A stretch of 64,000 bases of DNA from Metallosphaera yellowstonensis MK1 (GTDB taxonomy: Archaea > Thermoproteota > Thermoprotei_A > Sulfolobales > Sulfolobaceae), in assembly GCF_000243315.1 (NCBI RefSeq), contig NZ_JH597770.1, positions 603,740 through 667,739 on the forward strand, given 5' to 3'. Positions 2,702 through 20,467 of this stretch are shown here, piece by piece. A program made the translations under genes and the position numbers. Position 1 is the first letter of the stretch; every line of letters starts with the position of its first letter. The notes beneath the pieces were generated by a model that was not told where the DNA came from, searched no databases, and saw only the letters and a program-made list of their open reading frames with translations.

Positions 2702-3310
2702 ATGCTGTCAGATAAGATATCTGAGTATATTCTTTCAGTGGAAGCTAGGCTAAGATCTAGGTTTGAGAGTAGGGAGAAGTTGCTCCTAATGGCAAGGGAG
2801 GTAATCAGGTTGTCTGGCGAGACTATCTCACTTTCGCACAGGGGGAGGAGAGAGGAGGCCCTGAGGAAATATTCTGAAGCTGTAACTAAGGTAGCCGAGA
2901 TCAGGAACATAGTGGACAGCTTTCCGGAACTCTTAGCAGGAGATGTGGGGACAGCGTTCCAAGAGGTGAGCGAGGCTACAATAGTCCTCTCCCTATACTT
3001 TGGAGTACAGTTGTCCTTCCCCAAAGAGCTCGGAATACCAGACATCTATTACATCACTGGGATCGCTGACGCCGTGGGAGAGATGAGGAGAGCTGTACTT
3101 GAGAGCCTGCGAAAAGGCGATAAGGCCAAGGGAAGAGAGATCATGGAGGAGATGGAAACGATATATGAGGAGTTGTGGAAGTTGGAGTACCCTAAATCCC
3201 TGGTCCCAGGTCTTAGACAGAAGATAGACGCACTCAGGAAGCTGGTGGAGGACACCAGGCACGACCTGTTCTTGGCTGAAGTTATGGGTACAAGGGAAAA
3301 AGAGGACTAG
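2702..3310 (+). CDS. Translin-like RNA-binding protein
   Basis: The 202-residue, almost wholly helical protein resembles archaeal members of the translin/TRAX family, predicted single-strand nucleic-acid binding proteins whose eukaryotic relatives process small RNAs. Evidence is the overall helical pattern and the segment with [12 protein letters not shown] followed by [21 protein letters not shown], which matches the translin core. An upstream in-frame ATG at 2633 is possible, but it sits next to the divergent start and upstream of the TATA box at 2672-2679. The ATG at 2702 lies 26 bases after that box and is preferred. It converges on argX with a 4-base overlap. Its target RNA is unknown. 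Confidence 0.7.
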
Positions 3311-4152
3311 GAGAACTTCTCCTTTACGTGTTGCACTAACTTGGACGCCACGTCTATCCCTGTGGCTAGCATGAAGCCTTTGAACTCAGGCACGTCGTTG
3401 AGCTCATTTATTACATAACCTTTTGTTTGATGTTCTAAAACGTCTATGGACACAAACTCTCCCCCTACTACTTTCACTGCTTTGAGGGCTATTTCACGTA
3501 AGCTATCGTCTACCTCCAATGGGGAAGGCGTTCCACCTAGGGCTACGTTGGCCCTCCACTCGTTGGAGGGTATATTCCTAGCGTAACATCCAAGTAGCTC
3601 GTCTCCCAAGACTATACACCTTATGTCCCTGTTCTTCCCCGTTATATACTCCTGAACGATGTGAACCTTGAGGGCAGAGTTTCCCATCATCTCTCTATGT
3701 TCGATTATAGTTTTTCCCTCCAAGATGTCTCTGATAAGTGAGACCATCCTCCCCCAACTACCTATGGGGGGCTTATCTATGACTGGAAATCCCATCTGCT
3801 CATATGCCTTGAGTACCGAGTCCGCAGACATGGCTATGATAGAGTGGGGTATCTGTATTCCTGCCTTAAACAGTTTGGAATAAGTCAATATCTTGTCTCC
3901 TGCCACACTTATGACATCGGGAGAGTTTATTGTATGTACTCCCGCTCCCTCCAGCACGGCAGCTGCATACAGGGACCTGTACATACTCACGGCCCTGATT
4001 ATGGCCACGTCATATCGGGCGAGCGCCTTATTGAAGGGCAGTGGTTCCTGAGCGACGTTGAGGACGTCGTAGCTGATGGCACTATCATTTAGCGCCTTAA
4101 CCAGTAACTTCTCCTCTTGTCTAACTATGTCTACTACCAGAGCTACTTTCAC
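3307..4152 (-). CDS. argX: Glutamate--LysW ligase ArgX (LysX/RimK family)
   Basis: The 281-residue ATP-grasp ligase belongs to the LysX/ArgX branch of the RimK superfamily. In Sulfolobales, ArgX attaches glutamate through its amino group to the carrier protein LysW as the first committed step of arginine synthesis, while LysX does the same with alpha-aminoadipate for lysine. Assignment as ArgX rather than LysX rests on context: it is the last gene of an argG-argH-carA-carB operon. The ATP-grasp signature appears as the lysine-containing [13 protein letters not shown] segment and the metal-binding [11 protein letters not shown] near the C-terminus. The start is GTG overlapping the carB stop (GTGA). 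LysW and the downstream kinase/reductase genes are not in this window. Confidence 0.82.
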
Positions 4153-7100
4153 GAGACCCCTCCCCCGTATTTCCTCATCTCGAAAAATGTCATCTCTGTA
4201 TCCAGGGCGGCAGCTATCTCTGCCCCTAATATACCGTTCAAGATTAGGGGTACGTTAAAGTCCACCGCACTCCTCCTCACCGAATAATCCAACCGTTTCA
4301 GATAACCATTGGTTATCACTAACCCAATTTCACCCTTGTGAATGAGCTCTTGTGCTAGTTGGGGCTCCACCCAGTCGTACCCTGGGACAGAATACTCAGA
4401 CAGCGTCTTCACTGTCAAGCCGAAGTTCTCCAGGTTCTTAGCTGCAATCTGTAAGTACTCCTCGTTGCCCTTCCCATACACCAACGCTGTCTTACCCTTT
4501 TGAGGAATCCTGTTGGGAGAGCAGGAGAGCCAACTCTTCAGTAGGGCGTCCTGGAAAGTGACTCCCAGCGACGCTGACTCCCCAGTACTCCTCATCTCTG
4601 GCCCTAGAAACGGATATGATCCCTTTAACTGCGTCCAGGAAAACTGCGGCGACTTAACAGCCCAGGATTTGCTCTCTGGCTCCACGAAATCCTCAACCCC
4701 TAGTCCCTCCATCAGTGCCTTCATGGCCACATCCATGAGGTTTATACCTTTGGCCTTGCTGGTGAAGGGCATAGATCTGCTAGCCCTCAGGTTGAGCTCG
4801 ATGACGTATGGCAGACCGTCTTTCACGACGAACTGCAAGTTGAAGGGCCCTTTAATTTCTATTTCTCTTGCCAGGGATAGAGCGATCTTTCTCATCTCCC
4901 TAACCGTGTACTCGGGGATCTTCCTGGTTGGTATACTCATGGTGCTGTCTCCGCTGTGAACCCCTGCTTCCTCCACGTGCTCTATGACAACCCCGAAAAC
5001 GCCTTTACCGTCACTCACTCCGTCCACCTCGGCCTCGTAAGCGTTCTCCAAGAACTTGCTCACCACAATGGGATACTTGGTGGAGAGTCTCGCGACCTTT
5101 ACGAATTCCTCCAGCTCCTTCCAGTTCCATATAACCCTCATGGATGACCCACTGAGAACATAGCTCGGTCTCAGTAACACAGGGAACCCAACGCTCTCCA
5201 CGAATTTCCTAACCTGATCCATATCAGTAGCTGAAACCCAAGGCGGTTGCTTTATTCCCAGGGAATCCAAGAGTGACGAGAACTTCTCCCTATCCTCTGC
5301 CTTATCTACACTCTTGCCAGAGGATCCCAAGAGCCTCACACCTTTCTCCTCAAGTTCCCTTGCAATGTTATTTCCCAATTGTCCACCCGCGAAAGTGGCC
5401 ACGTAGGTATACCTCTCCTTGTTTACAATGTCTAGGACCCTCTCCACAGATATTTCGTCAAAGTATAGCTTTCTGGCTACGTCCCAATCAGTGGAGACGG
5501 TCTCTGGGTTGTAGTTTAAGATCGTCACATCATCGAAGTACTTTAGGGCAGCCTGCATGAGCGATACCACTCCCCAGTCGAACTCCACGGATACCCCTAT
5601 TCTGAAGCCCCCCGCACCAACTATTAGCAACCTGTTTCCCGTAGACGAGAGCTCTATGTCGTCCTCTTGGCCCACGTAAGTCATGTAGAGATAATTGGTT
5701 ACAGCGGGCCACTCCCCAGCTAAGGTATCGATTAATTTGACCTTCGGGAGTACACCGTGTTCTAGCCTCGTCTTAAACACTTTGTCTTCCGAAACTCCGA
5801 TACCCTTGGATATCTGCTCGTCGCTGAAGCCCAACTTTTTCAGTTCGAGAAGCTTTCTGCTGTCCAACCTGGAGCCCTTCAGGCTTTCGTAAGTTTTGAC
5901 CAGGTTTTCCAATTTCTTAAGGAAGAATTTATCTATCCCGGTGGAGTTATATACTTCCTCCAAGCTCGCCCCCTCCTTAAAGGCCTTAGCTGCGTAGAGA
6001 GGCCAGTAGGGTTTCCTTGTCCTCAGTAACTCAAGTGCCTGTTCTTTGCTCAGGGTCGAGTGATATGTTCTGCCTCCGACTACTCCCGGTTCTCCCAAGT
6101 CCAACATCCTGACTGCCTTCTGGAGAGCCTCCTCGAAGGACCTGCCTATACTCATGACTTCGCCTACGCTCTTCATTTCCGTTCCAAGACTGGTCTCAAC
6201 TTCCTCAAACTTCTGAAGGTCCCACCTGGGTATTTTGATTACCACGTAGTCCAAGCTTGGCTCAAAGCAGGCACAGGTGGCACCAGACACCTTGTTTAAC
6301 ACTTCGTCCAGCGTGTAGCCTAAGGCGAGTTTTGCTGAGACGTAGGCGAGAGGATAACCTGTTGCCTTACTGGCCAGTGCACTCGACCTGGACATCCTGG
6401 GGTTAGTCTCTATAACGTAGGTCGTGTAATCCTTAGGACTCAGGGCGAACTGAACGTTGCACTCCCCTACGAGATCGATGGACTTAGCGACCATGGTGGA
6501 AAGACTCCTCATCTCCTGAAGTTCTTTGTTGTCCAAGGTCTGACACGGGGTGATAACTATGGACTCCCCAGTGTGAACTCCCATTGGGTCTAGGTTCTCC
6601 ACACAGGCTATCACTGCAGAGTTGCCCTTTGAATCTCTCATCACTTCGAACTCCAACTCCTTCCAATGGTGGAGGTATTTCTCGACGAGTACCTCTCCTA
6701 TATAGCTCTGGGAGAGTGCCCTGTCAATACTACTCCTCAGGGACTCCCTATCCCAGGCTACAGTTGATCCTCTCCCTCCGAGGTTGAAGCTGACCCTCAC
6801 CATTACTGGGTAGCCTATCTTTTCTGCCTTCTCCAGGGCCTCCTCCGACGATCTTGCAGAAAAGCTGGGTGGGACGGGTATTTTGACATCTATCATAGTC
6901 TCTCTGAACTTCTCTCTACTCAGAGCCCTCTCTATTCCCTCTATGGGAGTGCCCAATACCTTGATCCCGTACTTCTGGAGGATTCCTTTCTTGAAGAGAT
7001 CCACTCCCACGTTTAGGGCGGTCTGTCCACCGAAGCCTATGGCTATGGCGTCAGGTCTCTCCTGCTCTATCACCTTCTCTACGGCCCACCAGGTGACGGG

Positions 7101-7292
7101 AACCATGTATATTTTGTCAGCTACTTTGTAGCTGGTCTGCACTGTGGCTACATTAGAGTTGACTAGGACGGTCTCGATCCCCTCCTCCCTGAAGGCCTTT
7201 AGGGATTGAGAACCGCTATAGTCAAACTCCGCAGCCTCAGCTATCTTGATGGGACCGGAGCCCACCACGATGACCTTCTTGACGTCAGGCAT
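4149..7292 (-). CDS. carB: Carbamoyl-phosphate synthase large subunit
   Basis: The 1047-residue synthetase subunit makes carbamoyl phosphate from bicarbonate, ammonia from CarA and two ATP. Both halves are present: an N-terminal carboxyphosphate half starting at [17 protein letters not shown] (residues 12-28) and a C-terminal carbamate half restarting at GAGGFRIG around residue 560. A short MGS-like allosteric domain covers roughly the last 120 residues. Full length for the family, no breaks. The start ATG overlaps the carA stop by 8 bases and the stop overlaps argX by 4, so translation is coupled. The product feeds both arginine (ArgG/ArgH branch) and pyrimidine synthesis (PyrB at 28646). 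Confidence 0.97.
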
Positions 7293-8394
7293 TCTTATTC
7301 ACCATCCTCTTGAACTTGTCAAACACCCACGTGGTATCCATGGGACCAGGTCTAGCCTCTGGATGAAACTGGGTAGTTATTATGGGAAGTTTTCTATGAA
7401 GTAATCCCTCCACAACTCCGTCGTCAGGGTTTACGAACCAGACCTGTGTCTCTGGGGGTATATCCTCCTTGAACACCCCATAGCCGTGATTGTGAGTGGA
7501 GATGTAACATCTTCCATCGCTCAGGTCCTTGACTGGCTTATTTATGGCCCTGTGACCAAACTTCATCTTCTTAACTTTGCCTCCAAGGGCCACAGTGGCT
7601 ATCTGGTGACCTAAACAGATTCCAAGTATGGGTATGCCGTACTCCTTTACGTCGAGGAAGGTCTTGGCTAACCCGGTGAGCAGGTTAGGATTCCCTGGAC
7701 CGTTACTGAAGACTACACCCTTTGGCGAGTAGTCCATGATCTGGTCTGCACTGGACTTGCAAGGTAGCCTAACCACGGTGAATCCCCTCTTGTATATCTC
7801 CTCCAAGATGCCGTGTTTGATCCCGCAATCGACGACTACCAGAAGATCTCCCTGGTTATGATGCACGATGGGGGATTTGGGTGAGGTGAACTGGGTGAAG
7901 TCTATTTCGTCGTACTTGGAGAGTATGTAACTTCTTGGATCCTCTACCTCCACTCCCGACGAAATGACTCCCATCATGGAACCCAAGGACCTCACCCTCT
8001 TCACTATCATCCTTGTGTCCACATTGGACACACCTGGGACGCCTCCTTCCTCCAACCACTGGTGGAGACTCCTGGAGGAATTCCACTTGTAAGGGTCTGT
8101 CTCTTCCGTGACCACTAGGCCCTCAATTTGGAGTCTCTCCGACTCAAAGTTCTTCAATATTCCGTTCTCAACCTGAGGGGTCGGAACACCATAGTTTCCC
8201 ACGAGCGGGTGAGTTATAACCAGTATCTGCCCCCTATATGAAGGGTCGGTGAGGCTCTCTGGATAGCCGTTCATGGCGGTAGTGAACACCACCTCCCCAT
8301 ATCTGATGCCCTTAGCCCCAAAGCCACACCCCCTGAGGAGTGTTCCGTCCTCCGTATAGAGGAACCCCTCAAGACCCCTCTTGCAGTATGTCAT
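7285..8394 (-). CDS. carA: Carbamoyl-phosphate synthase small subunit
   Basis: The 369-residue glutaminase subunit hydrolyses glutamine and channels ammonia to CarB. It has the CarA-specific N-terminal domain (about 1-175) and a class I glutamine amidotransferase domain with the nucleophile Cys260 in GICLGHQ and the His344/Glu346 pair in QFHPEA. The start ATG lies 26 bases inside argH, so the two genes overlap. The N-terminal seven or so residues look slightly extended compared with typical CarA, but no better start is visible. Confidence 0.97.
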
Positions 8395-9715
8395 CTTCCA
8401 TCGACCTCAATTCCCCGATTCCTTTGAGAATCAGGTTTTTATACTCATTCAACACCCTTTCGTGAGTTTCCAGTCTGTTCTTCACTTCCATAATACTCTC
8501 CCTCATTTTGGAGGGATTGGGAGAACCCTTCACGGCTTTCCTGGCCAGGGAATCTTCGAAGGTGAGGGAGGGACGGAATGACCCTTCCCTCAAGGACTTC
8601 GCCACTTCGAAGTAGGCAGTCCTATAACTCACATCCCCCTTAACTCTAGACTCAGCCTCATCCGTGGATAAAGTTTCGACGTCAAGCTTCGGGTCCCTCA
8701 CCCTTAATTTACTTAGCAAATCGTGCAGAATATAGACGGCCTTCCTGGCCTCGCTCAATATCGCCCAGTATTCTGGGTTCATCTCCTGGAGGTCTAGATT
8801 GTACCCCGAGGGTAGGGACTTATAGATGGAGGAGAGGGTCATCAAGGCCCCCAACACCTCTGAGGTTTTAGCCCTGAGTATCTCCATGGTGACGGCATTT
8901 CTCTTCTGTGGCATCAAAGAACTTGTACTTACATGCTCGTCAGGCAACTGGATAATGTTAGTCAGCTTGGAGGATAGCAGTATCAAGTCCTCAGCAACCC
9001 TGCTGAGTACCAACATGAGCACTCCTACTTCCATGCTTGCAGAGATAAGGTCAGCCCTCGAGGACGTGGCAGAGATCGTGTTAGTTATGACCCCCTCAAA
9101 TCCCAGAATATTGGCCTCTCTCTCCCTGTTTAAGGCCACTGAGGTGCCAACAACGGCACCGCTCCCCAAGGGAGATCTGTTCACCAGTCTGAGGGCTGAG
9201 AATATCATTTCCCAGCGTTGAGCTAGTTCCTCCTCTACGTAAAGGAGATAATGACCAAAGCTCGTGGGTTGGGCAGGCTGGAAGTGTGTGAAGGAAGGAA
9301 ATAGCGTAGTGGTCTCATCCTGGGCCCTCCTGATCAGAGTCCCTCTCAGTTGCAACAGTTCCTCAAGTAGCGAGATGAGTTCCTCCCTCATCTTCAACCT
9401 CAGGGCTGTTGCCACATGGTCGTTCCTGCTCCTCCCAAATCCCACCATACCCCCAAAGTCCCCGGCAAACTTGAGGAGGTGATCTTCCAGTGCCTCATGT
9501 ATATCCTCGTAGTTCTTCCCGATCTCCTTAAACGCGTTTATCCCCTGAATGAGGATCCTGCAGGCCTCTCTCGATATGTAACCTGAGAGAAATAACTCAA
9601 CGACGTGTGCCTTCATCACCAACTTCACTTGTTCTAATATTTCGGTATCGTCTTGGTACGACGACGTGTACCAAAGCACTGGATCTTTTTCCGTTCCCCA
9701 CTTCCTGTAGAGCAT
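8369..9715 (-). CDS. argH: Argininosuccinate lyase
   Basis: The 448-residue enzyme splits argininosuccinate into arginine and fumarate, the last step of arginine synthesis. The fumarase/aspartase superfamily signature is present as SSLMPQKRNAVT near residue 265, with the upstream SRNDHVATAL and HFQPAQPTS blocks that build the active site. Length is normal. The ATG start directly abuts the argG stop (stop at 9716-9718), and its 3' end overlaps carA. Confidence 0.97.
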   Translation of the reverse strand: MLYRKWGTEKDPVLWYTSSYQDDTEILEQVKLVMKAHVVELFLSGYISREACRILIQGINAFKEIGKNYEDIHEALEDHLLKFAGDFGGMVGFGRSRNDHVATALRLKMREELISLLEELLQLRGTLIRRAQDETTTLFPSFTHFQPAQPTSFGHYLLYVEEELAQRWEMIFSALRLVNRSPLGSGAVVGTSVALNREREANILGFEGVITNTISATSSRADLISASMEVGVLMLVLSRVAEDLILLSSKLTNIIQLPDEHVSTSSLMPQKRNAVTMEILRAKTSEVLGALMTLSSIYKSLPSGYNLDLQEMNPEYWAILSEARKAVYILHDLLSKLRVRDPKLDVETLSTDEAESRVKGDVSYRTAYFEVAKSLREGSFRPSLTFEDSLARKAVKGSPNPSKMRESIMEVKNRLETHERVLNEYKNLILKGIGELRSMEDDILQEGS

Positions 9716-10891
9716 CTACCCGTACCTCGCCTTCCTGGCCAGGATGGAGTGCATACCCCAGATCTCGATGAACCCTCTTGCCATCTCATCTGAGGGGTAC
9801 CACCCCCTATTGTAACTGGAAATTTTTTCAGAGTATGGGGAGTAGGGAGAGCTCCTACCCAAGATCCTCATGGCCTTCCCCTCTACCTCCACCTTAACCT
9901 CTCCATTAACCCACCTGTTGAGATCGTCGCCGGCATGATCTAACACTTCCCTCAAAGGCTCGAGCCAAAGGCCTCGATAGACTAAATCCGACCAAAGGGA
10001 ATCTATCATTCTCTTAAACCTAAACTCCTCGGGGGTCAGGACTGTCTTCTCCAGGTCCCGATGAGCGTAAACTAAGGTGAGCGCTGCTGGGGCCTCGTAG
10101 ACTTCCCTGGACTTAAAGCCTACGACCCTGTTCTCCAAGTGCTCTACTCTTCCAAAACCTCTAGCTCCAATTTCCTCGTTCAACCTGGAGATCAGTTGTA
10201 CTGTATCCATCCTCTCCCCATTTACCTTGACCGGAATACCCCTCTCAAACTCTATCTCGAGCTTCAACTTGTCGTTCTTTCTTGGGACGGTCCACTCGAA
10301 AGCGTCCTCTGGGACCTCTACTGCTGGGTCGGAAATAACGTCACCCTCTATACTCCTTCCCCAGAGGTTCTCGTCTATGCTATACTTACTACTTTCCGTC
10401 TTTATGGGGATTCCCTTCTCCTTGGCGTATTTGATCTCATCCTCCCTCGTCATTTTCCATATTCTTGCAGGTGCAATTATCTTCGCGTCTTCCATGAGAC
10501 TCATTAGGGTTAGATCGAATCTGACCTGATCGTTACCCTTGGACGTTGAGCCGTGAGCCACATAGTTTGTTCCCTCTTTCTTTGCTACCTCAATGACCTT
10601 TTGTGCAATTAGAGGCCTGGCCAGAGCAGTTGAGAGCGGGTATACTTCCTCATAGAGGCCATTCATCATTACGTCCCTAAACGCGAACTTTTCAGCGAAC
10701 TCCCTTTTGGCGTCAACCAGGTAATGCCTAACGGCACCAGCTACGTACGCTCTCTCCTCTATCTTCTTGAAGTCATCTCTTTGACCCACATCCACACTCA
10801 CGCTGACGACCTCTGCACTATAGGTTTCCTTTAACCACCTTATGGCCACAGTAGTATCTAGACCGCCAGAGTACGCGAGCACTATTTTCAT
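9716..10891 (-). CDS. argG: Argininosuccinate synthase
   Basis: The 391-residue N-type ATP pyrophosphatase joins citrulline and aspartate with ATP to give argininosuccinate. The PP-loop AYSGGLDTT is at residues 6-14 and the family blocks APARIWKMTREDEI and GRSIEGDVI follow. It is the first gene of the argG-argH-carA-carB-argX operon. A TTATAA box at 10917-10922 lies about 28 bases upstream of the ATG, giving an almost leaderless message. Ornithine carbamoyltransferase (argF) is not in the window. Confidence 0.97.
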   Translation of the reverse strand: MKIVLAYSGGLDTTVAIRWLKETYSAEVVSVSVDVGQRDDFKKIEERAYVAGAVRHYLVDAKREFAEKFAFRDVMMNGLYEEVYPLSTALARPLIAQKVIEVAKKEGTNYVAHGSTSKGNDQVRFDLTLMSLMEDAKIIAPARIWKMTREDEIKYAKEKGIPIKTESSKYSIDENLWGRSIEGDVISDPAVEVPEDAFEWTVPRKNDKLKLEIEFERGIPVKVNGERMDTVQLISRLNEEIGARGFGRVEHLENRVVGFKSREVYEAPAALTLVYAHRDLEKTVLTPEEFRFKRMIDSLWSDLVYRGLWLEPLREVLDHAGDDLNRWVNGEVKVEVEGKAMRILGRSSPYSPYSEKISSYNRGWYPSDEMARGFIEIWGMHSILARKARYG

Positions 10892-11268: not shown

Positions 11269-11724
11269 TTATGTGGTGGCCACAGCCACTGCCTTCTCCT
11301 TCTTGGCCCTATACTCCTCCAATCTCTCCATCATGGATTTTACTGCCAACGTCAGCTGATCCTTGTGATATTTTCTAACGTGCTCTTCAGTGTCCTCTCT
11401 AGCAACAACGGTGTTGCAGATCTTGCATGTGTATGCGCCGCTGTCATTTCTTGTGATTATGGGTTCGACGCCTTTTGAAATGTATTTGAGGATCGGAATG
11501 ACCTTCTTTGCTCTTATCTCGCTTCCGCTCTTCTCGATGATCCTCTGTGCATACCCCCTAAGCTGATGTTTGGAGATGTTGTACTTGTGAGCCACTATGG
11601 CTGGACCTTCTCCGTCCACTAAGTACTCCTCTAGAGCGTCCAATAGATAGTCGCTACCTCCTAGGATTTTTAGAGATACGTAATTTACGAGAGACTTTAT
11701 ATCAACTGGCTTCATACTAGCCAC
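11269..11724 (-). CDS. HTH plus C2H2 zinc-finger protein
   Basis: The 151-residue protein was not matched to a named family. Residues about 41-65 (IVAHKYNISKHQLRGYAQRI) resemble a helix-turn-helix. Residues about 99-120 carry a C2H2-type finger: CKIC, then H..KYH. The last 30 residues are a charged helix ending in an Ala/Val-rich tail. It is probably a nucleic-acid-binding regulator conserved in Sulfolobales. The start chosen is GTG at 11724, 26-28 bases after a TTTAAAA box at 11749-11755; an ATG nine bases further in (11715) is the alternative. It lies between the arg and pur operons and has its own promoter. Confidence 0.6.
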   Translation of the reverse strand: MASMKPVDIKSLVNYVSLKILGGSDYLLDALEEYLVDGEGPAIVAHKYNISKHQLRGYAQRIIEKSGSEIRAKKVIPILKYISKGVEPIITRNDSGAYTCKICNTVVAREDTEEHVRKYHKDQLTLAVKSMMERLEEYRAKKEKAVAVATT

Positions 11725-11770: not shown

Positions 11771-12739
11771 CTATATATCAAGAATTTGATTTTTGTACGA
11801 CCTCAGCTTTATCTTGCCTTGATCTCCCCTTACTTTCCCTAACCTGTAGGTCTTCACTCTGTTCGACAGTTTATTCTCAACCTCCTCTACGGTATCCTCA
11901 GGGACGAAGAGTATCATCCCAATTCCCATATTGAAGACTCTATGCATCTCTCTGTGGCTCACCCCAGCCCTCTCTATCTCCTTAAAGACATCAGGAGGGT
12001 CGGGAAGATTGATCTCTAACGAGTACTCGGTTATCCTCCTCAACTTAGCGAAGGCTCCTCCGGTTATGTGGGCAGCGCCCTTTATCAAGTCCAGTACCGA
12101 GAGCACCTCTCTTACGTATATTCTGGTCGGTCTCATCAACTCATCCTCCCAATCCTCGAGGGACAGTTTTCCTTCATCAATGAGTTTCCTTACGAGGGAA
12201 TATCCATTCGCGTGTATCCCGTCGCTGGCCAAACCTAGTAGGACGTCTCCAGGTCTTACCTCATTACCTAATTTGGTCTTCTCCACTACACCCAACGCAG
12301 TGCAAGCGACGTCGAAACCGTTGACCACTCCCTTCATTATGGCGGTCTCTCCCCCAACAACTTCGGAGTCCGAGACCTTGGCACCCTCCACGATACCCTC
12401 AATGATTTCCTTCACCAGTTCATCGTCCTCGCTCTCCAAGGCCAGGTAGTCCACCAGAGCTACTGGTCTGGCTCCAACACACACTAGGTCGTTAACGTTC
12501 ATGGCCACGCAGTCTATCCCTATGGGTTTGAATTTCCTGGTCCTCAGAGCCAACAGTGTCTTGGTGCCGACACCGTCGGTGTGTATTGCAAGGTTTATCC
12601 CATTTATGTTCACTACGCCGGCGTAGTGACCTGCCCCCACTATGGTTCTCCTGTAGGTGGAGGATATCAGGCTCCTTATTCCCTCGTGATATTCCCTCAA
12701 TTTATCCAGATTGACACCGGAGTCCCTGTACTCGTTCAC
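11771..12739 (-). CDS. purM: AIR synthase (FGAM cyclo-ligase)
   Basis: The 322-residue ATP-dependent enzyme closes the imidazole ring of formylglycinamidine ribonucleotide to give AIR. The family blocks are visible: the N-terminal glycine-rich GAGHYAGVV segment, HTDGVGTKTLLA, GIDCVAMNVNDLVCVGA and the C-terminal GGAFAKLRRI and FNMGIGM. It is the last gene of the purine operon. The start is GTG overlapping the purD stop (GTGA). Somewhat short of bacterial PurM (about 345 residues) but complete. Confidence 0.95.
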   Translation of the reverse strand: MNEYRDSGVNLDKLREYHEGIRSLISSTYRRTIVGAGHYAGVVNINGINLAIHTDGVGTKTLLALRTRKFKPIGIDCVAMNVNDLVCVGARPVALVDYLALESEDDELVKEIIEGIVEGAKVSDSEVVGGETAIMKGVVNGFDVACTALGVVEKTKLGNEVRPGDVLLGLASDGIHANGYSLVRKLIDEGKLSLEDWEDELMRPTRIYVREVLSVLDLIKGAAHITGGAFAKLRRITEYSLEINLPDPPDVFKEIERAGVSHREMHRVFNMGIGMILFVPEDTVEEVENKLSNRVKTYRLGKVRGDQGKIKLRSYKNQILDI

Positions 12740-14169
12740 CAGAGACCACCGTTAGGCGACCAATCCTTGGAGACCCCCAAGGTGCCTCTCTTCACCCTAT
12801 TAAGATAGGAGTACCTCACTATCTCCGCTTTGTCCTGCTGTTCCCAGATCCCTCTCCCTATGTCAGTCCTATATATGAGCTCCGTGTTAGAGTTGATCAG
12901 CTTGACACAGGACTCCAGTCTCCTGCTCGACTCCTCGAAGTCCCCTATGGACACTAACTCTAAGGCTCTTGAGCCTTTGCTTATCAGTTTCCCTCCTTCG
13001 TAAGCGATGGAACCGAAGTACACCTTGCAACCCTTCTCTCTCATTCTCTCTAGATCAAGTTGAAACTCCTTTCCAGAGGCCAGGTCTCTCCTTAGGGGAT
13101 AACCCAGGGGAGCTACTGCCCACACCACAGCGGGTTCTGGAACGACTTCTAACATGGCTTTTGCTAACCTTCCCTCAGCAGCTAACTGAAGGATTCTGCC
13201 GAAGTCCGAGCTTATCCTGGGAATTATGGCGGAGGTCTCTGGATCCCCCATCCTGGAGTAAAACTCTATGACTGTAGGCCCCCAGAGCTCCGTAAGCATC
13301 ATCTGTCCAGAGATGAAACCTCTATACGTATCCCCGGTCTCCTTCGATATGGACTCAGCGGTTCTCTTCACTATCTCAAAGGTCTTCTCATATTCCTCCC
13401 GCGTGATGAAAGGTAATAGGTTACCAGGTCCTGATATTGAACCCATCCCGCCAGTCTCAGGACCTATTCCGTCCTGGTATGCGTGTTTGTAATCCTGAGC
13501 CAGGGGAAGAGGGAGGTATGAATACCCGTCTGTCAACACGTGCAGAGTATACTCGGGTCCATCCACTTTCTCCTCTATGATTATCTTCACCTCGCTTTTG
13601 ACCAGGGAACCTATCTCGTCCACGCTCCTGCTCAGGGCACTCCTTTTCTCTTTAGATAGATAGGCCTGTAGATCAGCTACTACCTTGACTCCCTTCCCCC
13701 CTACCTGCTCTGACGGTTTCACGGCCACAGATCCGCCATACTCCATGATGAACTTTGAGGCCTCCTCCAGGCTGGTGAATGCCCTAAACCTCAGCCTCCC
13801 GTCTATTTGGTACTTCCACATCAGTTCTCTCATCCATACCTTTGACTTCTCGATCTGGGAGCAAGTCTTAGAGGGACCTATGACTGGAAGCCCCTCTTTC
13901 CTGAACTCGTCCGCTACACCGTGAAATAATGGATCTTCAGGACCCACCACTCCGAAATCCGGCCCCACCGTCCTTATGGCCTCTCTCACGTCCTCTTGGG
14001 AACTTACGTTTCCTCTCAGGTACTCTCCGCCTGTCTTCCTCACCACCTCCATGATACCTGGGTTAATGTAAGAGGATAAGGCATACACCCTGTAGGACTC
14101 CGATGAGTTACCCAGGGACTCAGCCAGGACATGTTCCCTGGCACCTTCTCCTATTAAGAGTACCTTCAT
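12736..14169 (-). CDS. purD: Phosphoribosylamine--glycine ligase
   Basis: The 477-residue ATP-grasp enzyme attaches glycine to phosphoribosylamine. The N-terminus MKVLLIGEGAREHVLAES is the classic GAR synthetase start, followed by GPEDPLFHGVADEF, GPSKTCSQIEKSK and the GRMGDPET-like block RMGDPETSAIIPR. The frame is open 31 codons further upstream, but that extension lies inside purF2, has no family similarity and is rejected. The chosen ATG (14167-14169) shares its A with the purF2 stop (TAATG). Longer than many PurD proteins (about 430), mainly through internal insertions. Confidence 0.93.
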   Translation of the reverse strand: MKVLLIGEGAREHVLAESLGNSSESYRVYALSSYINPGIMEVVRKTGGEYLRGNVSSQEDVREAIRTVGPDFGVVGPEDPLFHGVADEFRKEGLPVIGPSKTCSQIEKSKVWMRELMWKYQIDGRLRFRAFTSLEEASKFIMEYGGSVAVKPSEQVGGKGVKVVADLQAYLSKEKRSALSRSVDEIGSLVKSEVKIIIEEKVDGPEYTLHVLTDGYSYLPLPLAQDYKHAYQDGIGPETGGMGSISGPGNLLPFITREEYEKTFEIVKRTAESISKETGDTYRGFISGQMMLTELWGPTVIEFYSRMGDPETSAIIPRISSDFGRILQLAAEGRLAKAMLEVVPEPAVVWAVAPLGYPLRRDLASGKEFQLDLERMREKGCKVYFGSIAYEGGKLISKGSRALELVSIGDFEESSRRLESCVKLINSNTELIYRTDIGRGIWEQQDKAEIVRYSYLNRVKRGTLGVSKDWSPNGGLW

Positions 14170-15380
14170 TATTGAATCACCTTCGGGTAACTCCTGGTCA
14201 TGCATCCCATGCAAAGGGAGGAAGAGGTCAGAGCTCTCCTTAAACCCTCCAGGGAGAGCCAATGTATCGAGTCAGCGCCTAATACCTTGGCTATCTCCTC
14301 CTCCCGCAGGTTAGCTGCTATGAGCTCTTTCTCTTCTGGCACCTCCACCCCGTAAGGACAAGGGGAGACCAACTTCGGACTCCCGATGAGAACGTGAACC
14401 TCCTTGGCTCCCAATCTTCTCAGGCTAGCTATGGTGTTCTTTAATGTAGTACCTGTGACCATGGAATCGTCAATGAGGACGACTCTCTTACTATGAACTG
14501 CTCCTCTGACCGGATTGAGTTTCAATTGAACTCCCACAATTTTGAGGAAATCGTCCGAGGCCAACATGGTCCTTATGGGACTTCCTGTCCTGGTGAAACC
14601 CAGTTCTAGCGGTATATTCAGCCTCCTCGAGTATCCCAGGGCGAAGGGGAGCGCGGTGTCCGGAACCCCTATCACTACGTCGGCCTCAAGAGGCCTCTCC
14701 TCTGCCAGCAGTTCTCCTATCCTCACCCTAACTTGATACACCTCACTTTCGTTAACGTAACTGTCAATTCTAGCCTGATATACGTACTCTATGGAGCAGT
14801 AGGCCTTCCTGGGCTCCCTCAACTGCTTGGTTGAAACGTTGAGTCTTGACATGAGGATCATCTCTCCAGGTTTGACCTCTCGCCTGAACTCTCCCCCAAT
14901 AACCCACATAGCCACAGGTTCCGAGGCAATAATACCCATGTCGAAGCCGAAGCCTCCTAAGGCCAACGGCCTCAATCCGGTCTCATCTCTATATGCTATC
15001 AGGTTTCCATCCCTAGTCAAGGCTATGAGCGAGAATGCTCCCTTGGCACTAAGTATGGCTGACTCTGGATCGGTGACTAGTCTCTTGGAGAACTCGTTCA
15101 AGTCCACCTTTATTACGCCGTCTATCACGAGGGCAGCGTCGTCTGTGACCACTGGGTATCCTCTCCTGGTTCCCGCGTATCCCAGTCCAGCCCATCCTCC
15201 TATGTCCACCTCCAAGTCCTCCGGCGGTACGTCATTGATTTTCTCTCTGATTTTTCCGTCCAGTAGAGCGACTCCGCTGGTCGCGTATCCCCTGTGTTGA
15301 AGACCCACTAGGGAGTAGTAGAGGAACTTAGAGACGTTCCATACTTGATCGAAGGCTAATATGCCTACTATTCCAGCCAT
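14169..15380 (-). CDS. PurF paralogue with degenerate glutaminase site
   Basis: The 403-residue protein is homologous over its whole length to PurF, but where the glutaminase nucleophile Cys follows the initiator Met it has Ala (MAGIVGILAF). Other glutaminase residues are also lost: the Asn-Gly of NGTITN is replaced by IDGVIKV and the RYSTTG block by TRRGYP. The phosphoribosyltransferase half keeps the PRPP loop (VVLIDDSMVTGTT near residue 300) and the C-terminal Cys residues (SPCPYG, CMGC). It cannot use glutamine itself. It could be an ammonia-dependent enzyme, a regulatory subunit or a partner of PurF. The ATG at 15380 is chosen because AGGTGAT at 15384-15390 forms a good Shine-Dalgarno site; a GTG nine bases upstream overlaps the purF stop. 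Confidence 0.88.
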   Translation of the reverse strand: MAGIVGILAFDQVWNVSKFLYYSLVGLQHRGYATSGVALLDGKIREKINDVPPEDLEVDIGGWAGLGYAGTRRGYPVVTDDAALVIDGVIKVDLNEFSKRLVTDPESAILSAKGAFSLIALTRDGNLIAYRDETGLRPLALGGFGFDMGIIASEPVAMWVIGGEFRREVKPGEMILMSRLNVSTKQLREPRKAYCSIEYVYQARIDSYVNESEVYQVRVRIGELLAEERPLEADVVIGVPDTALPFALGYSRRLNIPLELGFTRTGSPIRTMLASDDFLKIVGVQLKLNPVRGAVHSKRVVLIDDSMVTGTTLKNTIASLRRLGAKEVHVLIGSPKLVSPCPYGVEVPEEKELIAANLREEEIAKVLGADSIHWLSLEGLRRALTSSSLCMGCMTRSYPKVIQ

Positions 15381-15385
15381 ATTTA

Positions 15386-16723
15386 TCACCTAGAGAAGAC
15401 CCTCTCCAGTGAGGAGAGGTCATATTTTCCCCTCAGGGGGTAGTCACCGGTGAAGCATGCCTCACAGATGGTTCTCTTGCCTATGGCCAGCTCCATTTCC
15501 TCAACTGTAAGGTACTCCACGCTGTCTGCACCTATTTCCTCGGCTATTCGTCTTAAGTCTCCGGATCTGGCCAACAGGTCGGATCTCTTGGGGAAATCTA
15601 TTCCCATATAACACGGATATCTTATCATGGGAGATCCTATTCTGACGTGTATCTCCCTCGCTCCCGCACCTCTCAAGGAGCTCACTATCCTGTTCATGGT
15701 ATTCCCTCTGACTATGGAATCGTCCACCAGTACCACCCTCTTGTCCCTCACCGCCACGTCCACGAGGCCAAACTTTTCCTTAAGGACTTCGTTTCTCTTC
15801 TCGTTGGAGGGCATAATGAAAGACCTCTTGGAATATACGGTCCTGACCAAGGCTTCCTCCAGTGGAATCCCACTCCTCCTGGAGAAACCCAAGGCAATTG
15901 GCCGAGACGATTCAGGGACAGGGACTACGACGTCGGCCCTGGCCGGATGTCTCTCCGCAAGGATCTCGCCCAGCTTAATCCTGGCAGAGTAGACCGACAC
16001 CCCGTCTATCACGGAGTCACTTCTTGCGAAATAGATGTACTCAAAGGCACACGTGGTTCCCAACATGTGAAATACCTGTTCCCTCTTAATTCCACCCCTT
16101 TGAATTACTACCAACTCTCCAGGATGAACAGAACCTATGACCTGTCCACCGAGTTGTCTTATCACCGAGTCTTCGGAGGAGACTACCCACGCCCCATTGA
16201 TCTTTCCCAGCACCAGAGGCCTGAACCCTCTAGGGTCCCTCACAGCCAACACAGTACCGTCACGGGCTAGCACGAGCAGTGAGTACGCCCCGTCTGCCAC
16301 GTCCATGAAACCCTTTAACGACTCCTTCAGGGGCTTTCCCCCCTTCATTTCCCTCTCCAGGAAGGTCAGAATGAATTCAGTGTCAGTGGGGTAATCCCCA
16401 TGCATGAAGTAGTTGGTTATGGTGCCGTTAAAGGACACGGAGATTCTATCGTTTCCCAAGGGCTGAGCCTCCTCCAGTGTGGTTGAACCGGTGGTGGAGT
16501 ACCTGACGTGGCCTATGGACGCCTCTGATTCCTCCAACCTCTCCGGATCTATGGCCTCACCCACCAGACCTAGCCCCTTCACTAGCTTAACCCTACCATC
16601 CTTTGTCCAGGAGATTCCAGCTGACTCCTGTCCCCTGTGCTGAAGTAGCTTCAGCCCTTCATAGGTGAGCTTCACTGACCCCTCCCCTACTGCGCCAAAT
16701 ACCCCACAATGCTCCCTGATCAA
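15386..16723 (-). CDS. purF: Amidophosphoribosyltransferase
   Basis: The 445-residue enzyme makes phosphoribosylamine from PRPP and glutamine, the first committed purine step. The N-terminal glutaminase nucleophile is Cys6 (MIREHCGVFG), exposed after removal of a five-residue propeptide as in known PurF proteins. HVRYSTTG and NGTITNY complete the glutaminase site, and VVLVDDSIVRGNT is the PRPP loop. C-terminal Cys residues (YPCYMGI, CEAC) recall the iron-sulfur ligands of Bacillus-type PurF, although one of the usual four is absent. The start is TTG overlapping the purL stop. It is followed directly by the inactive paralogue. Confidence 0.95.
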   Translation of the reverse strand: MIREHCGVFGAVGEGSVKLTYEGLKLLQHRGQESAGISWTKDGRVKLVKGLGLVGEAIDPERLEESEASIGHVRYSTTGSTTLEEAQPLGNDRISVSFNGTITNYFMHGDYPTDTEFILTFLEREMKGGKPLKESLKGFMDVADGAYSLLVLARDGTVLAVRDPRGFRPLVLGKINGAWVVSSEDSVIRQLGGQVIGSVHPGELVVIQRGGIKREQVFHMLGTTCAFEYIYFARSDSVIDGVSVYSARIKLGEILAERHPARADVVVPVPESSRPIALGFSRRSGIPLEEALVRTVYSKRSFIMPSNEKRNEVLKEKFGLVDVAVRDKRVVLVDDSIVRGNTMNRIVSSLRGAGAREIHVRIGSPMIRYPCYMGIDFPKRSDLLARSGDLRRIAEEIGADSVEYLTVEEMELAIGKRTICEACFTGDYPLRGKYDLSSLERVFSR

Positions 16724-18828
16724 CTTAGCTCCTCCTCAAGCATGTTCAGGTATCTTTCTACTTCCCTCTCCAACGGAAGTTCGACGTCGTCAAGGAACAG
16801 TGAAGCCTTGCCCTTCGTGACCTTGCCTATGGTAGAGGCCACAATCCCCTTCCTGGACGCCTGAATGTGGAACCAATGTGGGTCGTCGGTCAGCACCAGG
16901 AATCTTCCCCCACTCTCAGAGAACAATATGGAGAGCAGGTCCCTGGTGCCAATAACAGCTTTAGTATTGATGTGTACTGCGTGCCCTGACGCCAGAATGG
17001 GCAATAGTGATCCTGCCAGACCTCCCTTATTGATGTCCTTATTCCAGGTTAGCTTGGACTCATTGATGGCCTTGATTATCAACTCACTTGCTAGGAGGTC
17101 CTCCATGAGCCTGGCCCTGGCTACCTCCCCTCTCCCTCCAAAGAGTCTCGAGAAGAGCGTACCCCTCAGCTCATTCCTCGTAATTCCCAGCAGGACTAAC
17201 CATCCCTCTTCTACTCGTGGTTTCAGGTACTTTCCCTCTACCAGTCCAGCCATTACTATGAGAGGTGTAGGTTTTATGGGGTTCCCATTCTTGTCCTCAT
17301 TGTGGAACGATACCTTCCCTCCAACTATGGGGACGGAGAAGAACTTAGCTGCCTCTGATATCCCCCTGATACTATCAACGAAGTCTTGGTAGACCTCCGG
17401 CTTCCTCGGATCCCCGAACTGAAGGTGATCCACTGCGGCGATCCCTCTAGCTCCCACTGAAGCTAAATTCCTGAACGCCTCAGCGACTATGGCCTTTCCG
17501 CACTCGTACGCGTCGACTTCGCAAAGGTCTTGATTGGCGTCCCCTTTGACGGCGATTTGCCTCCCGTTGGGCAACTCGATCACCGCACTGTCAGCCTGGC
17601 CTGGCTTAACCAGTGTAGATACTCCGACCTCATAGTCAAACTGCGAGTAGGCCCACTCCTTGTTGCCCAAGTCAGGATGAAGGAGTATGGTCGATAGGGC
17701 TTCCCTCACGGAGACCTCTTTCACCTCCTCAGTCCTGACCTTCCTGTTCATGGGCCAGACGAAGAGGGGAGGTGACAGTAAGAGTTGGGAAGGAAGGTCA
17801 ACTACAACTTTACCCTCGTAAGTGAAGGTAATTCTGGGTTCACTCACGATCTCCCCGATGACCTCACATGGATAGTTGTAGTCCTCAAAGGCTCTGCACA
17901 CTTCTTGGACATTCTCAGATTTAACGGCGAAGAGCATCCTCTCCTGCGTCTCTGAAATGATGATCTCTTCGGGGCTCATGCCCTTCACTCTGAGGGGGAC
18001 CCTCTCCAGTTGCACCCTTGCCCCGAGACCGTTGGCCATTTCTGTCACGGCCACGGCCAAACCTCCCCCACCCAGATCCTTCATGGCCTCCACCTTTCCT
18101 CTAACCTCCAGCGTCGCGTCGATCAGGATCTTACCTGCAAAGGGGTCTGCTATCTGGACAGCCCCTATCTCATCCATCCCGCTGAGTTTCCTTGACGCGA
18201 AGGACGCCCCTCCAATGCCATCTAACCCAGTGAAACCCACGAGCACTAGCTTAAGTCCAGGAGTTCTCACGACGCTGGGTACGATCTCGCTAGCCTTCAC
18301 CACGCCCACACAAGCCACGTCCACCAAAGGGTTATCGGTGTAGGTGGGGTCGAAGGATAGTTCTCCTCCAACCACTGGAACTCCCACGCTATTACCGTAG
18401 GAAGCTATTCCAGCTATGATGTTCTTTAGGAGCCACTTCCCCTTGGCGTCCAGTCCTCCAACCCTTATCATGTCCAACAGTGCTATGGGCCTGGCTCCCT
18501 TGCTTATTATATCCCTCAAGATTCCGCCCACACCAGTGGCTGCACCGTTGTAAGGATCCACAGCCGAAGGGTGGTTGTGGCTCTCCACCTTCAGGACCAG
18601 AGCCCATCCGTCACCGACGTCCACCGCACCTGCGTCTTGCCAATCCTCCACGCTCATTATAACTCCTTGCCCAGTAGTGGGCAAGCTCCTGAGGAAAGTC
18701 TTGGAACTCTTGTAGGAACAATGTTCCGACCAAAGCGCATCTACGACCTTCCACTCAGCCTCGTTGGGTTCCCTGTCCAGAGTGGATCTAACCAGTTCCA
18801 TTTCCTTTGAGGACAAAGTAAGCATCAT
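16720..18828 (-). CDS. purL: FGAM synthase II
   Basis: The 702-residue synthetase subunit converts FGAR to FGAM using ammonia supplied by PurQ, with PurS as the third subunit of the complex. N-terminal SEHCSYKSSKTFL, the metal-binding KVESHNHPSAVDPYNGAATGVGG region near residues 79-102, and the duplicated AIR-synthase-like halves show the family. Length is typical of the small, PurQ-dependent archaeal and Gram-positive type. The ATG overlaps the purQ stop (ATGA). Confidence 0.97.
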   Translation of the reverse strand: MMLTLSSKEMELVRSTLDREPNEAEWKVVDALWSEHCSYKSSKTFLRSLPTTGQGVIMSVEDWQDAGAVDVGDGWALVLKVESHNHPSAVDPYNGAATGVGGILRDIISKGARPIALLDMIRVGGLDAKGKWLLKNIIAGIASYGNSVGVPVVGGELSFDPTYTDNPLVDVACVGVVKASEIVPSVVRTPGLKLVLVGFTGLDGIGGASFASRKLSGMDEIGAVQIADPFAGKILIDATLEVRGKVEAMKDLGGGGLAVAVTEMANGLGARVQLERVPLRVKGMSPEEIIISETQERMLFAVKSENVQEVCRAFEDYNYPCEVIGEIVSEPRITFTYEGKVVVDLPSQLLLSPPLFVWPMNRKVRTEEVKEVSVREALSTILLHPDLGNKEWAYSQFDYEVGVSTLVKPGQADSAVIELPNGRQIAVKGDANQDLCEVDAYECGKAIVAEAFRNLASVGARGIAAVDHLQFGDPRKPEVYQDFVDSIRGISEAAKFFSVPIVGGKVSFHNEDKNGNPIKPTPLIVMAGLVEGKYLKPRVEEGWLVLLGITRNELRGTLFSRLFGGRGEVARARLMEDLLASELIIKAINESKLTWNKDINKGGLAGSLLPILASGHAVHINTKAVIGTRDLLSILFSESGGRFLVLTDDPHWFHIQASRKGIVASTIGKVTKGKASLFLDDVELPLEREVERYLNMLEEELS

Positions 18829-19502
18829 TTCCCAAACACCCTGAGGATCTCTAGACCATCTGTAGACCCGTCTGGAGTTAGTTTAGAGAAAGACGCTCTC
18901 TCTGGGTGTGGCATAAGCCCTATCACGTTCCCAGCTTGATTTGCGATGCCTGCCACGTTTTGCACGGAACCGTTAGGGTTCACCTCCTCCACCACCAGCC
19001 CGGAGGGATTAGAGTACTGGAAGACCGCCAGCTCTCTGGCCTCCTCTTCGTCCTCCAGATAATATCTCCCCTCAGCGTGTGCTATGGGCATCAGTAGTAC
19101 GTCCTTGATACCTCTGGTGAATGGCGTGTCCTTTCTGCTCACCCTCACGTAAGTCCATTTGGTGATGAACCTGAGTTTCAGATTGGGGAGGAGGGCTCCC
19201 TTCAGTATTCCAGACTCTACAAGTATTTGGAAGCCGTTACAAATCCCGAGGACCAACTTGCCCTGGTCTGCCATCTCCCTCACCCCCTTCATGGCCTCGC
19301 TGTTGGCTGCTATGGTTCCGGCCCTGAGGTAGTCTCCGAAACTGAAACCACCAGGTATCACCACCCCCTGATACCTGTCTGGGTCGAAGGAATTGAACTT
19401 GACCACCTCGGCCTCAGCTTTCACCAGCCTCAGTGCCTTGACTACGTCTTCCTCGCAGGTCGTGCCTGGAAACTTAAGGACTGCCGTCCTCAACCCTCTC
19501 AC
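18825..19502 (-). CDS. purQ: FGAM synthase I, glutaminase subunit
   Basis: The 225-residue class I amidotransferase supplies ammonia to PurL. The nucleophile is Cys88 in LGICNGFQIL and the His/Glu pair is in MPHPERA near the C-terminus. PGGFSFGDYLRAG at about 50-62 is diagnostic for PurQ. The GTG at 19502 lies inside the end of purS; a TTG three codons later gives the more usual N-terminus, so the true start may be 19493. Confidence 0.95.
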   Translation of the reverse strand: MRGLRTAVLKFPGTTCEEDVVKALRLVKAEAEVVKFNSFDPDRYQGVVIPGGFSFGDYLRAGTIAANSEAMKGVREMADQGKLVLGICNGFQILVESGILKGALLPNLKLRFITKWTYVRVSRKDTPFTRGIKDVLLMPIAHAEGRYYLEDEEEARELAVFQYSNPSGLVVEEVNPNGSVQNVAGIANQAGNVIGLMPHPERASFSKLTPDGSTDGLEILRVFGK

Positions 19503-19743
19503 TCCTCACGATGATCTTGTGAACGATAGGGTTGAACAGTCTCTTCTCTTCAGCTATCCTCTTGACCAAGGATTCAGCCTCATCCTTGGACTTAGCCTCC
19601 ACCAGGAACCTCACGTACTTTCCTGCCTTCACCTCGCCTATAATCCCAGAGTACTGCTCCTCGATGACGAACCTCTTTATGGTCTCCCCCTCCGGATCCC
19701 TGACGCCGTCCTTGTTCACTATTATTAGCTCCACTGCGTACAT
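19474..19743 (-). CDS. purS: FGAM synthase subunit PurS
   Basis: The 89-residue protein is the small structural subunit that bridges PurL and PurQ. The N-terminus MYAVELIIVNKDGVRDPEG and the two-strand, two-helix pattern fit PurS. The ATG starts directly after the purC stop (19744-19746) and the 3' end overlaps purQ. Order purC-purS-purQ-purL is the standard archaeal and Gram-positive arrangement. Confidence 0.93.
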   Translation of the reverse strand: MYAVELIIVNKDGVRDPEGETIKRFVIEEQYSGIIGEVKAGKYVRFLVEAKSKDEAESLVKRIAEEKRLFNPIVHKIIVRSERVEDGSP

Positions 19744-20445
19744 CTAAACCACTCTCCTGAGTTTATCCAGGAACTCGGAGTAGGAGTCCCTCACGACCTC
19801 TAGAGGGAAGCCTCTCCTATACAAGTCCTTATCTAAGATCCTCCCGCTCCTGTCCCTAACTCTCATGGAGTCCAGGGACAGTTCATCTCCCAATATCAAC
19901 CTGTTGTCCAGCCTCCCGAACTCGAGCTTAAAGTCGTAGAGGACAAAGCCTGCCTCTTCAACCACCTTCTTCAGGACTTCGTTTACCTTGACCGCTAAGT
20001 CCTCCACTTTTCTGGCCTCTTCCTCTGAGAACAACTTGAGGTATCTCATGTGATGATAATTGAGGAGAGGATCATGTCTAGTATCGTCCTTCAGGAAGAA
20101 CTCCACTATGGGGGGTTGGAATACCTCTCCCTCCCCTATGGGTAGCCTCTTCACTATGCTACCCGTAGCTACGTTCCTCAGCACCACCTCCACAGGGACC
20201 ATTTTAAGCCTTTTTACGATCATGGTCCTCTCGTCCTCCATCCCTACGTAGTGTGTCTCCACGCCGTGTCTCTCCAACAACCTGAAGAGTATGGCTGAAG
20301 TCTGAGCGTTGAGGACTCCCTTCCCTGGTAACACGTCAGACTTAGCCCCGTCCCCAGCAGTTATTGAGTCCTTGAACCTCAACAGAACGTGTTGACCGTC
20401 CAGAAGGTAGACCTCCTTGGTCTTTCCCTCCCCTAACTTCTCCAT
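19744..20445 (-). CDS. purC: SAICAR synthetase
   Basis: The 233-residue enzyme joins aspartate to CAIR. The N-terminus [15 protein letters not shown], the [14 protein letters not shown] segment and [12 protein letters not shown] are family signatures, followed by the C-terminal DFKLEFGR. It is the first gene of the purine operon. The ATG at 20445 lies 26 bases after a TTAAAAAT box (20468-20475) and is preferred over the GTG 15 bases upstream; the transcript would be leaderless. purE, purB, purN/T and later steps are not in the window. Confidence 0.95.
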
Positions 20446-20467
20446 ATTGCTTGTTAACACAACTAGC

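Follow-up and report, generated by a model that had tools for sequence, protein, structure and literature searches.

Why should an archaeal purine gene cluster carry two PurF genes in tandem, the second encoding a protein that begins MAGIVG, with Ala in place of the canonical Cys1? The question concerns the committed, feedback-controlled step of purine synthesis, which is catalysed by PurF, an enzyme that in its characterized, canonical form is a homotetramer.

A second PurF gene in the purine cluster

The two genes lie in the window analysed here, a 64-kb stretch of the genome of the thermoacidophilic archaeon Metallosphaera yellowstonensis MK1 (Sulfolobaceae), within a minus-strand run that reads purC-S-Q-L-F1-F2-D-M (Table 1). 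The identical eight-gene order was found in 30/30 Sulfolobaceae loci, and thus the placement of purF2 is not a matter of chance. The purF2 ATG sits 5 nt past the stop of purF1, while a GTG at 15389 on the same strand provides an alternative start that would extend the ORF to 406 codons and overlap the purF1 stop by 4 nt (GTGA). At the other end, the purF2 stop and the purD ATG overlap by 1 nt (TAATG), placing the purD start at 14169. The original prediction held that purF2 is translationally coupled to both of its neighbours. The overlapping or touching reading frames on which this claim was built are indeed present on both sides and, because stops and starts meet in this way, coupling of PurF1, PurF2 and PurD is probable.

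Table 1. Coordinates of the purine genes and of landmarks within purF2 in the window
Feature	Position	Strand	Basis or remark
purM	11771-12739	-	order in 30/30 loci
purD	12736-14169	-	ATG shares 1 nt with purF2 stop
purF2 (PurF')	14169-15380	-	403 aa counted from ATG at 15380
PRTase half of PurF2	14172-14798	-	Pfam PF00156 38.5 bits, cut-off 26.3; dN/dS 0.035
PRPP loop VVLIDDSMVTGTT	14445-14483	-	sequence, alignment
KLNP, PRTase flexible loop (Lys349 equivalent)	14511-14522	-	Lys349 in 79/79 PurF2
Glutaminase-like half (class II GATase fold), catalytic residues gone	14799-15380	-	alignment, fold model, dN/dS 0.066
Asp-Gly at Asn101-Gly102 oxyanion hole position	15117-15122	-	alignment
Gly at glutamine-binding Arg73 position	15171-15173	-	alignment
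Ala codon at Cys1 nucleophile position	15375-15377	-	sequence comparison
purF1, complete canonical PurF	15386-16723	-	TIGR01134 394.7 bits, cut-off 350
purF1 Cys1 codon	16706-16708	-	preceded by 5-residue leader
purL	16720-18828	-	order in 30/30 loci
purQ	18825-19502	-	order in 30/30 loci
purS	19474-19743	-	order in 30/30 loci
purC	19744-20460	-	order in 30/30 loci

Two features flank the cluster on the same strand. Immediately past purM, positions 11269-11724 encode a 151-aa protein with a zinc-finger-like CxxC...HxxxxH pattern and a sub-threshold Pfam match, and further on (7285-10891) lie genes assigned by reading as carA-like, argH-like and argG-like.

A second PurF-like cluster of Crenarchaeota was named PurF' by Brown et al. 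(2011; PMC3261824), who reported one such protein per crenarchaeon studied, encoded close to purF and in many cases bearing Ala or Val for Cys1. These authors suggested an ammonia-dependent enzyme, calling for experiment, and the conclusions of their paper describe duplications, purF included, as having no established explanation. The same paper records a second PurF in Methanocorpusculum labreanum, Mlab_0150, likewise altered, with Ser for Cys1. The PurF2 of the window, matched to PurF' by description, fits it: Cys1 is present in 0/79 of the copies aligned here, the copies form their own clade, and the gene lies near purF and other purine genes. PurF2 is a real and conserved protein, already described in kind as PurF'. 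No later work on the paralogue was recognized in the open-access literature; the main text of a S. islandicus Tn-seq paper (PMC6249222) contains no purine term, and the available part of a paper on Urm1 (PMC12625751) places purine biosynthesis among the target networks and does not name PurF.

The glutamine and PRPP sites of PurF2

Residues were compared, in the numbering of mature E. coli PurF, across an alignment of that enzyme with 79 PurF1, 79 PurF2 and 20 single PurFs of the phylum. Cys1, Arg73, Thr76, Asn101, Gly102 and Asp127 are present in 79/79 PurF1. By contrast, the Cys nucleophile, Arg73 and Asn101, which mark an active class II glutamine amidotransferase, each occur in 0/79 PurF2; position 1 is occupied by Ala (40), Ser (10), Gly (8), Thr (7), Pro (5), a gap (4) or, in the remainder, other residues, and position 101 by Asp in 64 copies and Glu in 10. 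In the window the FNGTITN and RYSTTG blocks of PurF1 are replaced by IDGVIK and GTRRG, respectively. The PRTase half has fared differently, with Arg332, Lys349, Asp366, Asp367 and Gly372 in all 79 PurF2, and Tyr258 (78), Thr or Ser at 333 (78), Asn351 (76), Ser368 (78) and Thr374 (77) in nearly all. Both the motif, including Asp366 and Asp367, and the domain (PF00156) of type I phosphoribosyltransferases are thus found. In simulations of the E. coli enzyme (PMC7953260), Arg73, Thr76 and Gly102 bond a glutamine analogue, and Thr333, Lys349, residue 258, Arg371 and Thr374 bond a PRPP analogue. The original prediction had set a lost glutamine site, with Ala for Cys and both sequence blocks gone, against an intact PRPP loop and surviving C-terminal Cys residues. 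The alignment bears out each of these points and makes the contrast exact across the 79 PurF2, although the intact loop of the window, VVLIDDSMVTGTT, has T in place of the R typical of PurF.

Four Cys are common to PurF1, PurF2 and single PurFs, those at E. coli positions 403, 457 and 460 being invariant and the one at 252 occurring in 92% of PurF2; the C-terminal Cys of PurF2 are three of these. The four positions are those of the [4Fe-4S] ligands of PurF. Within the dead pocket PurF2 keeps Arg26 and Gly27 in 79/79 copies, and thus the pocket appears to possess conserved chemistry of its own, in which Arg26 may form a salt bridge with Asp or Glu at position 101.

The loop substitution is widespread, position 371 being Thr in 55, Arg in 19 and Ser in 4 of the 79 PurF2. 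Type I PRTases in general likewise have Thr here in the PRPP loop, and the opening segment of the flexible loop displays a motif of its own, xTGxxxR[ST], in many copies of PurF2. It could be argued from these features that PurF2 acts outside the PurF reaction, either hydrolysing PRPP or, as a PRTase, serving a different acceptor. It should be emphasized, however, that purF2 stays within the purine cluster and that Arg371 is retained in many deep copies, and we regard such a role as improbable. The flexible loop also bears on a division of labour in which, within a single complex, PurF1 would chiefly supply glutaminase activity and PurF2 chiefly PRTase activity. Indeed PurF1 lacks Asn351 in 62/79 and Lys349 in 8/79 cases, whereas PurF2 keeps these residues in 76/79 and 79/79, respectively. 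Tyr258, Arg332, Asp367, Ser368 and Arg371, however, are kept in 79/79 PurF1, some deep pairs (L049 and L050) have KLN in both copies, and single PurFs, which necessarily work alone, are without Lys349 in 9/20 and without Asn351 in 9/20. Since single PurFs show the same absences, the loop changes in PurF1 do not prove loss; the case for reciprocal degeneration is weakened and a division of this kind is very unlikely.

Three details of the alignments deserve mention. The alignment used for the tree showed Cys1 in L039 and L042 and Asn101 in L063; these residues were taken as misaligned, because the localpair alignment places Cys1 and Asn101 in 0/79 PurF2 and there is no Cys in L039; change counts from the tree alignment were discarded for positions 1, 101 and 127. 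In loci L061-L066 (families f22 and f30) the flexible loop of PurF1 is altered or shortened and the usual Lys349 stretch is absent, while the PurF2 of these loci keeps it. The f22 PurF2 are mostly short, with open frames often of 376-395 aa, and their N-terminal half is barely matched by the PurF2 profile.

Profile searches and fold prediction give a complementary picture of the whole protein. Against TIGR01134 PurF2 scores 248.5 bits, under the curated cut-off of 350, and its best stretch begins only at profile position 140; GATase_7 gives 11.6 bits (cut-off 25). An AlphaFold2 model built on 71 PurF2 sequences (pLDDT 93.4, pTM 0.90) nevertheless superimposes on 6lbp, 1ao0 and E. coli PurF with Z 41-44 and rmsd 2.1-2.6 across 380-389 residues, the whole model matching 6lbp at Z 44.3. 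Residues 2-190 of the model match GlmS glutaminase domains at Z 23 and adopt the class II glutamine amidotransferase (Ntn-type) fold, so that in the model the glutaminase-like half retains its fold. PurF2 is therefore like the canonical enzymes of E. coli (1ecb, 6czf), B. subtilis (the Fe-S type; 1ao0, 1gph) and Arabidopsis (6lbp) in full-length fold, PRPP site and the four Cys of the Fe-S type, and differs from them in having no glutamine site and in falling below the TIGR01134 cut-off. Beta-lactam synthetase (1jgt, 1mbz) matches the model at Z 13-14; this enzyme uses a class II GATase fold without glutaminase activity, joined to a different second domain, and is not known to use PRPP.

Retention, pairing with PurF1 and possible function

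Selection was assessed by pooled dN/dS (Nei-Gojobori) over close pairs, using comparisons with dS 0.05-2; 15 pairs were tried, the last of which was without a PurF2 partner. PurF1 gave 0.062 for the glutaminase (10 pairs) and 0.053 for the PRTase (11 pairs), and PurF2 0.066 for the glutaminase-like half (12 pairs) and 0.035 for the PRTase half (9 pairs), although the ranking of these four values is no test since the pairs are few and partly nested. With dN/dS far below 1, both halves of PurF2 are under strong purifying selection, and the constraint on the dead half matches that on its live counterpart in PurF1 (0.066 versus 0.062). The absence of the catalytic Cys might be taken to indicate a decaying pseudogene. 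In the relatives, however, the frames are open and constrained, and the PurF2 of Thermoproteota, Asgard and Theionarchaea fall in a single clade; given the open frames and low dN/dS, decay was rejected and is hardly credible. The original prediction that PurF2 has a retained role is supported by these values, and the loss of PRPP binding that would have spoken against it is not seen, the site residues being kept in essentially all copies.

The occurrence of PurF2 is bound to that of PurF1. At the level of the class, 57/144 genomes have PurF1 and the identical 57 have PurF2, while 87 have neither. A profile search of 397 Thermoproteota genomes with a completeness of 90% or more found PurF2 in 95, with both proteins in 93, a PurF2 match only in 2, canonical PurF only in 189 and none in 113. 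Both PurF2-only genomes are cut at the locus: G267 has the tail of PurF1 immediately before PurF2 at a contig end, and the sequence of G262 breaks off at the PurF2 start. Conversely, G182, counted among the 189, has the beginning of a PurF2 where its contig runs out. In two fragmented genomes from families with pairs (G288 and G387) no PurF2 was seen beside PurF1. PurF2 also occurs in 11/147 genomes of the Asgard phylum and 6/99 of the Theionarchaea phylum, with canonical PurF in each (one cut at a contig start). Among the genomes searched in the three phyla, none with PurF2 is demonstrably without PurF1. PurF2 follows PurF1 immediately in 66/79 pairs; of the other 13, 8 share a strand with PurF1 at a distance of 6-8 kb, 1 is side by side on opposite strands and 4 are elsewhere in the genome or on another contig. 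In further loci holding both, PurF2 follows PurF1 in 28/28, some genomes being represented twice.

These data lead us to favour, at just short of an even chance, the view that PurF2 is a conserved, glutaminase-dead partner subunit of PurF1 that is predicted to bind PRPP. The two proteins would form a mixed oligomer in which PurF1 would carry out glutamine-dependent phosphoribosylamine synthesis, the PRPP site of PurF2 could act as a second reaction site or as a sensor of PRPP and nucleotides, and its dead glutaminase fold might provide a structural interface. Co-occurrence and gene order back this view, as, weakly, do co-varying rates, and the strongest point in its favour is that PurF2 is never found without PurF1 while its useless-looking half is under selection. 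Against it stand above all the PurF1-type enzymes that occur without PurF2 in 189/397 genomes by match counts (G182 included), and in addition the fragmented genomes G288 and G387 and the 13/79 pairs in which PurF2 is not directly after PurF1, the two being far apart or on different contigs in 4; an independent PRPP-using enzyme of the purine pathway, moreover, would co-occur with PurF1 too.

The main rival reading, put forward by Brown et al. (2011), is that PurF2 is a free-standing, ammonia-dependent PRPP aminotransferase, making phosphoribosylamine from PRPP and NH3. It is consistent with the PRPP-site residues in 79/79 PurF2, with the location of purF2 in a purine operon and with the statement in PMC3261824 that replacing Cys1 of E. 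coli PurF abolishes its use of glutamine but not that of ammonia. PurF2, however, was never observed replacing PurF1, and its glutaminase-like half is constrained though useless to such an enzyme. In addition, PurF2 is absent from all AmoA-bearing (ammonia oxidizer) genomes, 94/397, although this says little because ammonia oxidizers represent few lineages. Tyr74, Tyr329 and Phe334, which we take to line the ammonia channel of PurF, are lost in the PurF2 alignment; the loss is neutral here, since an enzyme fed from solution needs no channel. We consider the ammonia-dependent enzyme unlikely, and favour the partner subunit over it.

Partnership was also explored through evolutionary rates, by correlating residual rates over 57 branches of 30 Sulfolobaceae for seven genes (21 gene pairs; p-values not adjusted for that number). 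With the mean of the others as control, PurF1-PurF2 ranked 1/21 (0.53). With all other genes as controls it ranked 2/21 (0.36), below PurC-PurF2 (0.39) and above PurF2-PurD (0.34). Among six comparisons of domain halves, the PRTase of PurF1 with the glutaminase-like half of PurF2 was highest (0.39). The support that this co-variation lends to partnership is suggestive only, and the test is weak because a known complex, PurQ-PurL, reached 0.27 under both controls and only rank fourth or fifth of 21.

Origin and order of loss

When 116 rows were placed in a quick maximum-likelihood tree, the 41 PurF2 fell into a single clade (SH-aLRT 100) that spans Thermoproteota, Asgard and Theionarchaea, whereas PurF1 and single PurFs intermingle and are not split by the presence of PurF2. 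Because all PurF2 rows fall together, the protein probably had one origin rather than repeated ones, through an old duplication followed by loss, or through transfer. The Asgard copies preserve what may be intermediate stages. Six of the 11, including that of Candidatus Jordarchaeum (L109, again L189), keep Cys1, Asn101, Gly102 and Asp127 and have Ser or Cys in place of Arg73; the remaining five comprise one with Val1 and Asn101 and four with Ser or Ala at position 1 and Ser at 101. Two of the six Cys-keeping copies were placed in the tree and both nest within the PurF2 clade, and thus the simplest order would be that the glutamine-binding Arg was lost first and the nucleophile later and more than once, regain of Cys being the alternative.

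Taken with the pairing, this order suggests a more specific scenario, advanced tentatively as somewhat less than an even bet. PurF1 and PurF2 would be an obligate hetero-oligomer, an ancient two-gene PRPP amidotransferase of Thermoproteota, Asgard and Theionarchaea, in which PurF2 lost Arg73 first and the nucleophile later and repeatedly, and persisted as a subunit that, loaded with PRPP, serves in catalysis or sensing. Should archaea indeed rely on a mixed enzyme that includes a glutaminase-dead subunit, they would control the committed step of purine synthesis otherwise than bacteria and eukaryotes do. New here, relative to the PurF' account (PMC3261824, section 6), are the exact 57/57 co-occurrence, the wider spread within Thermoproteota and into Asgard and Theionarchaea, the residue-level contrast between the two sites, the selection values for each domain, the co-varying rates and the Asgard intermediates that keep Cys1; this contrast, the pairing with PurF1 without a demonstrated exception and those intermediates make the role of PurF' experimentally tractable.

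Five Asgard loci (L209, L210, L211, L213 and L214) hold a further PurF-like protein of ~460-475 aa, encoded beside canonical PurF on the opposite strand; in L209 it occupies 2964-4373 on the minus strand, and Pfam detects GATase_7 only. By profile these proteins are not PurF2, scoring 169-187 bits against PurF2 and 215-229 bits against PurF1. Their Cys1 position is Gly or a gap, Arg73 is absent and Val stands at the Asn101 position, so that the glutaminase seems to have been lost independently in these proteins.
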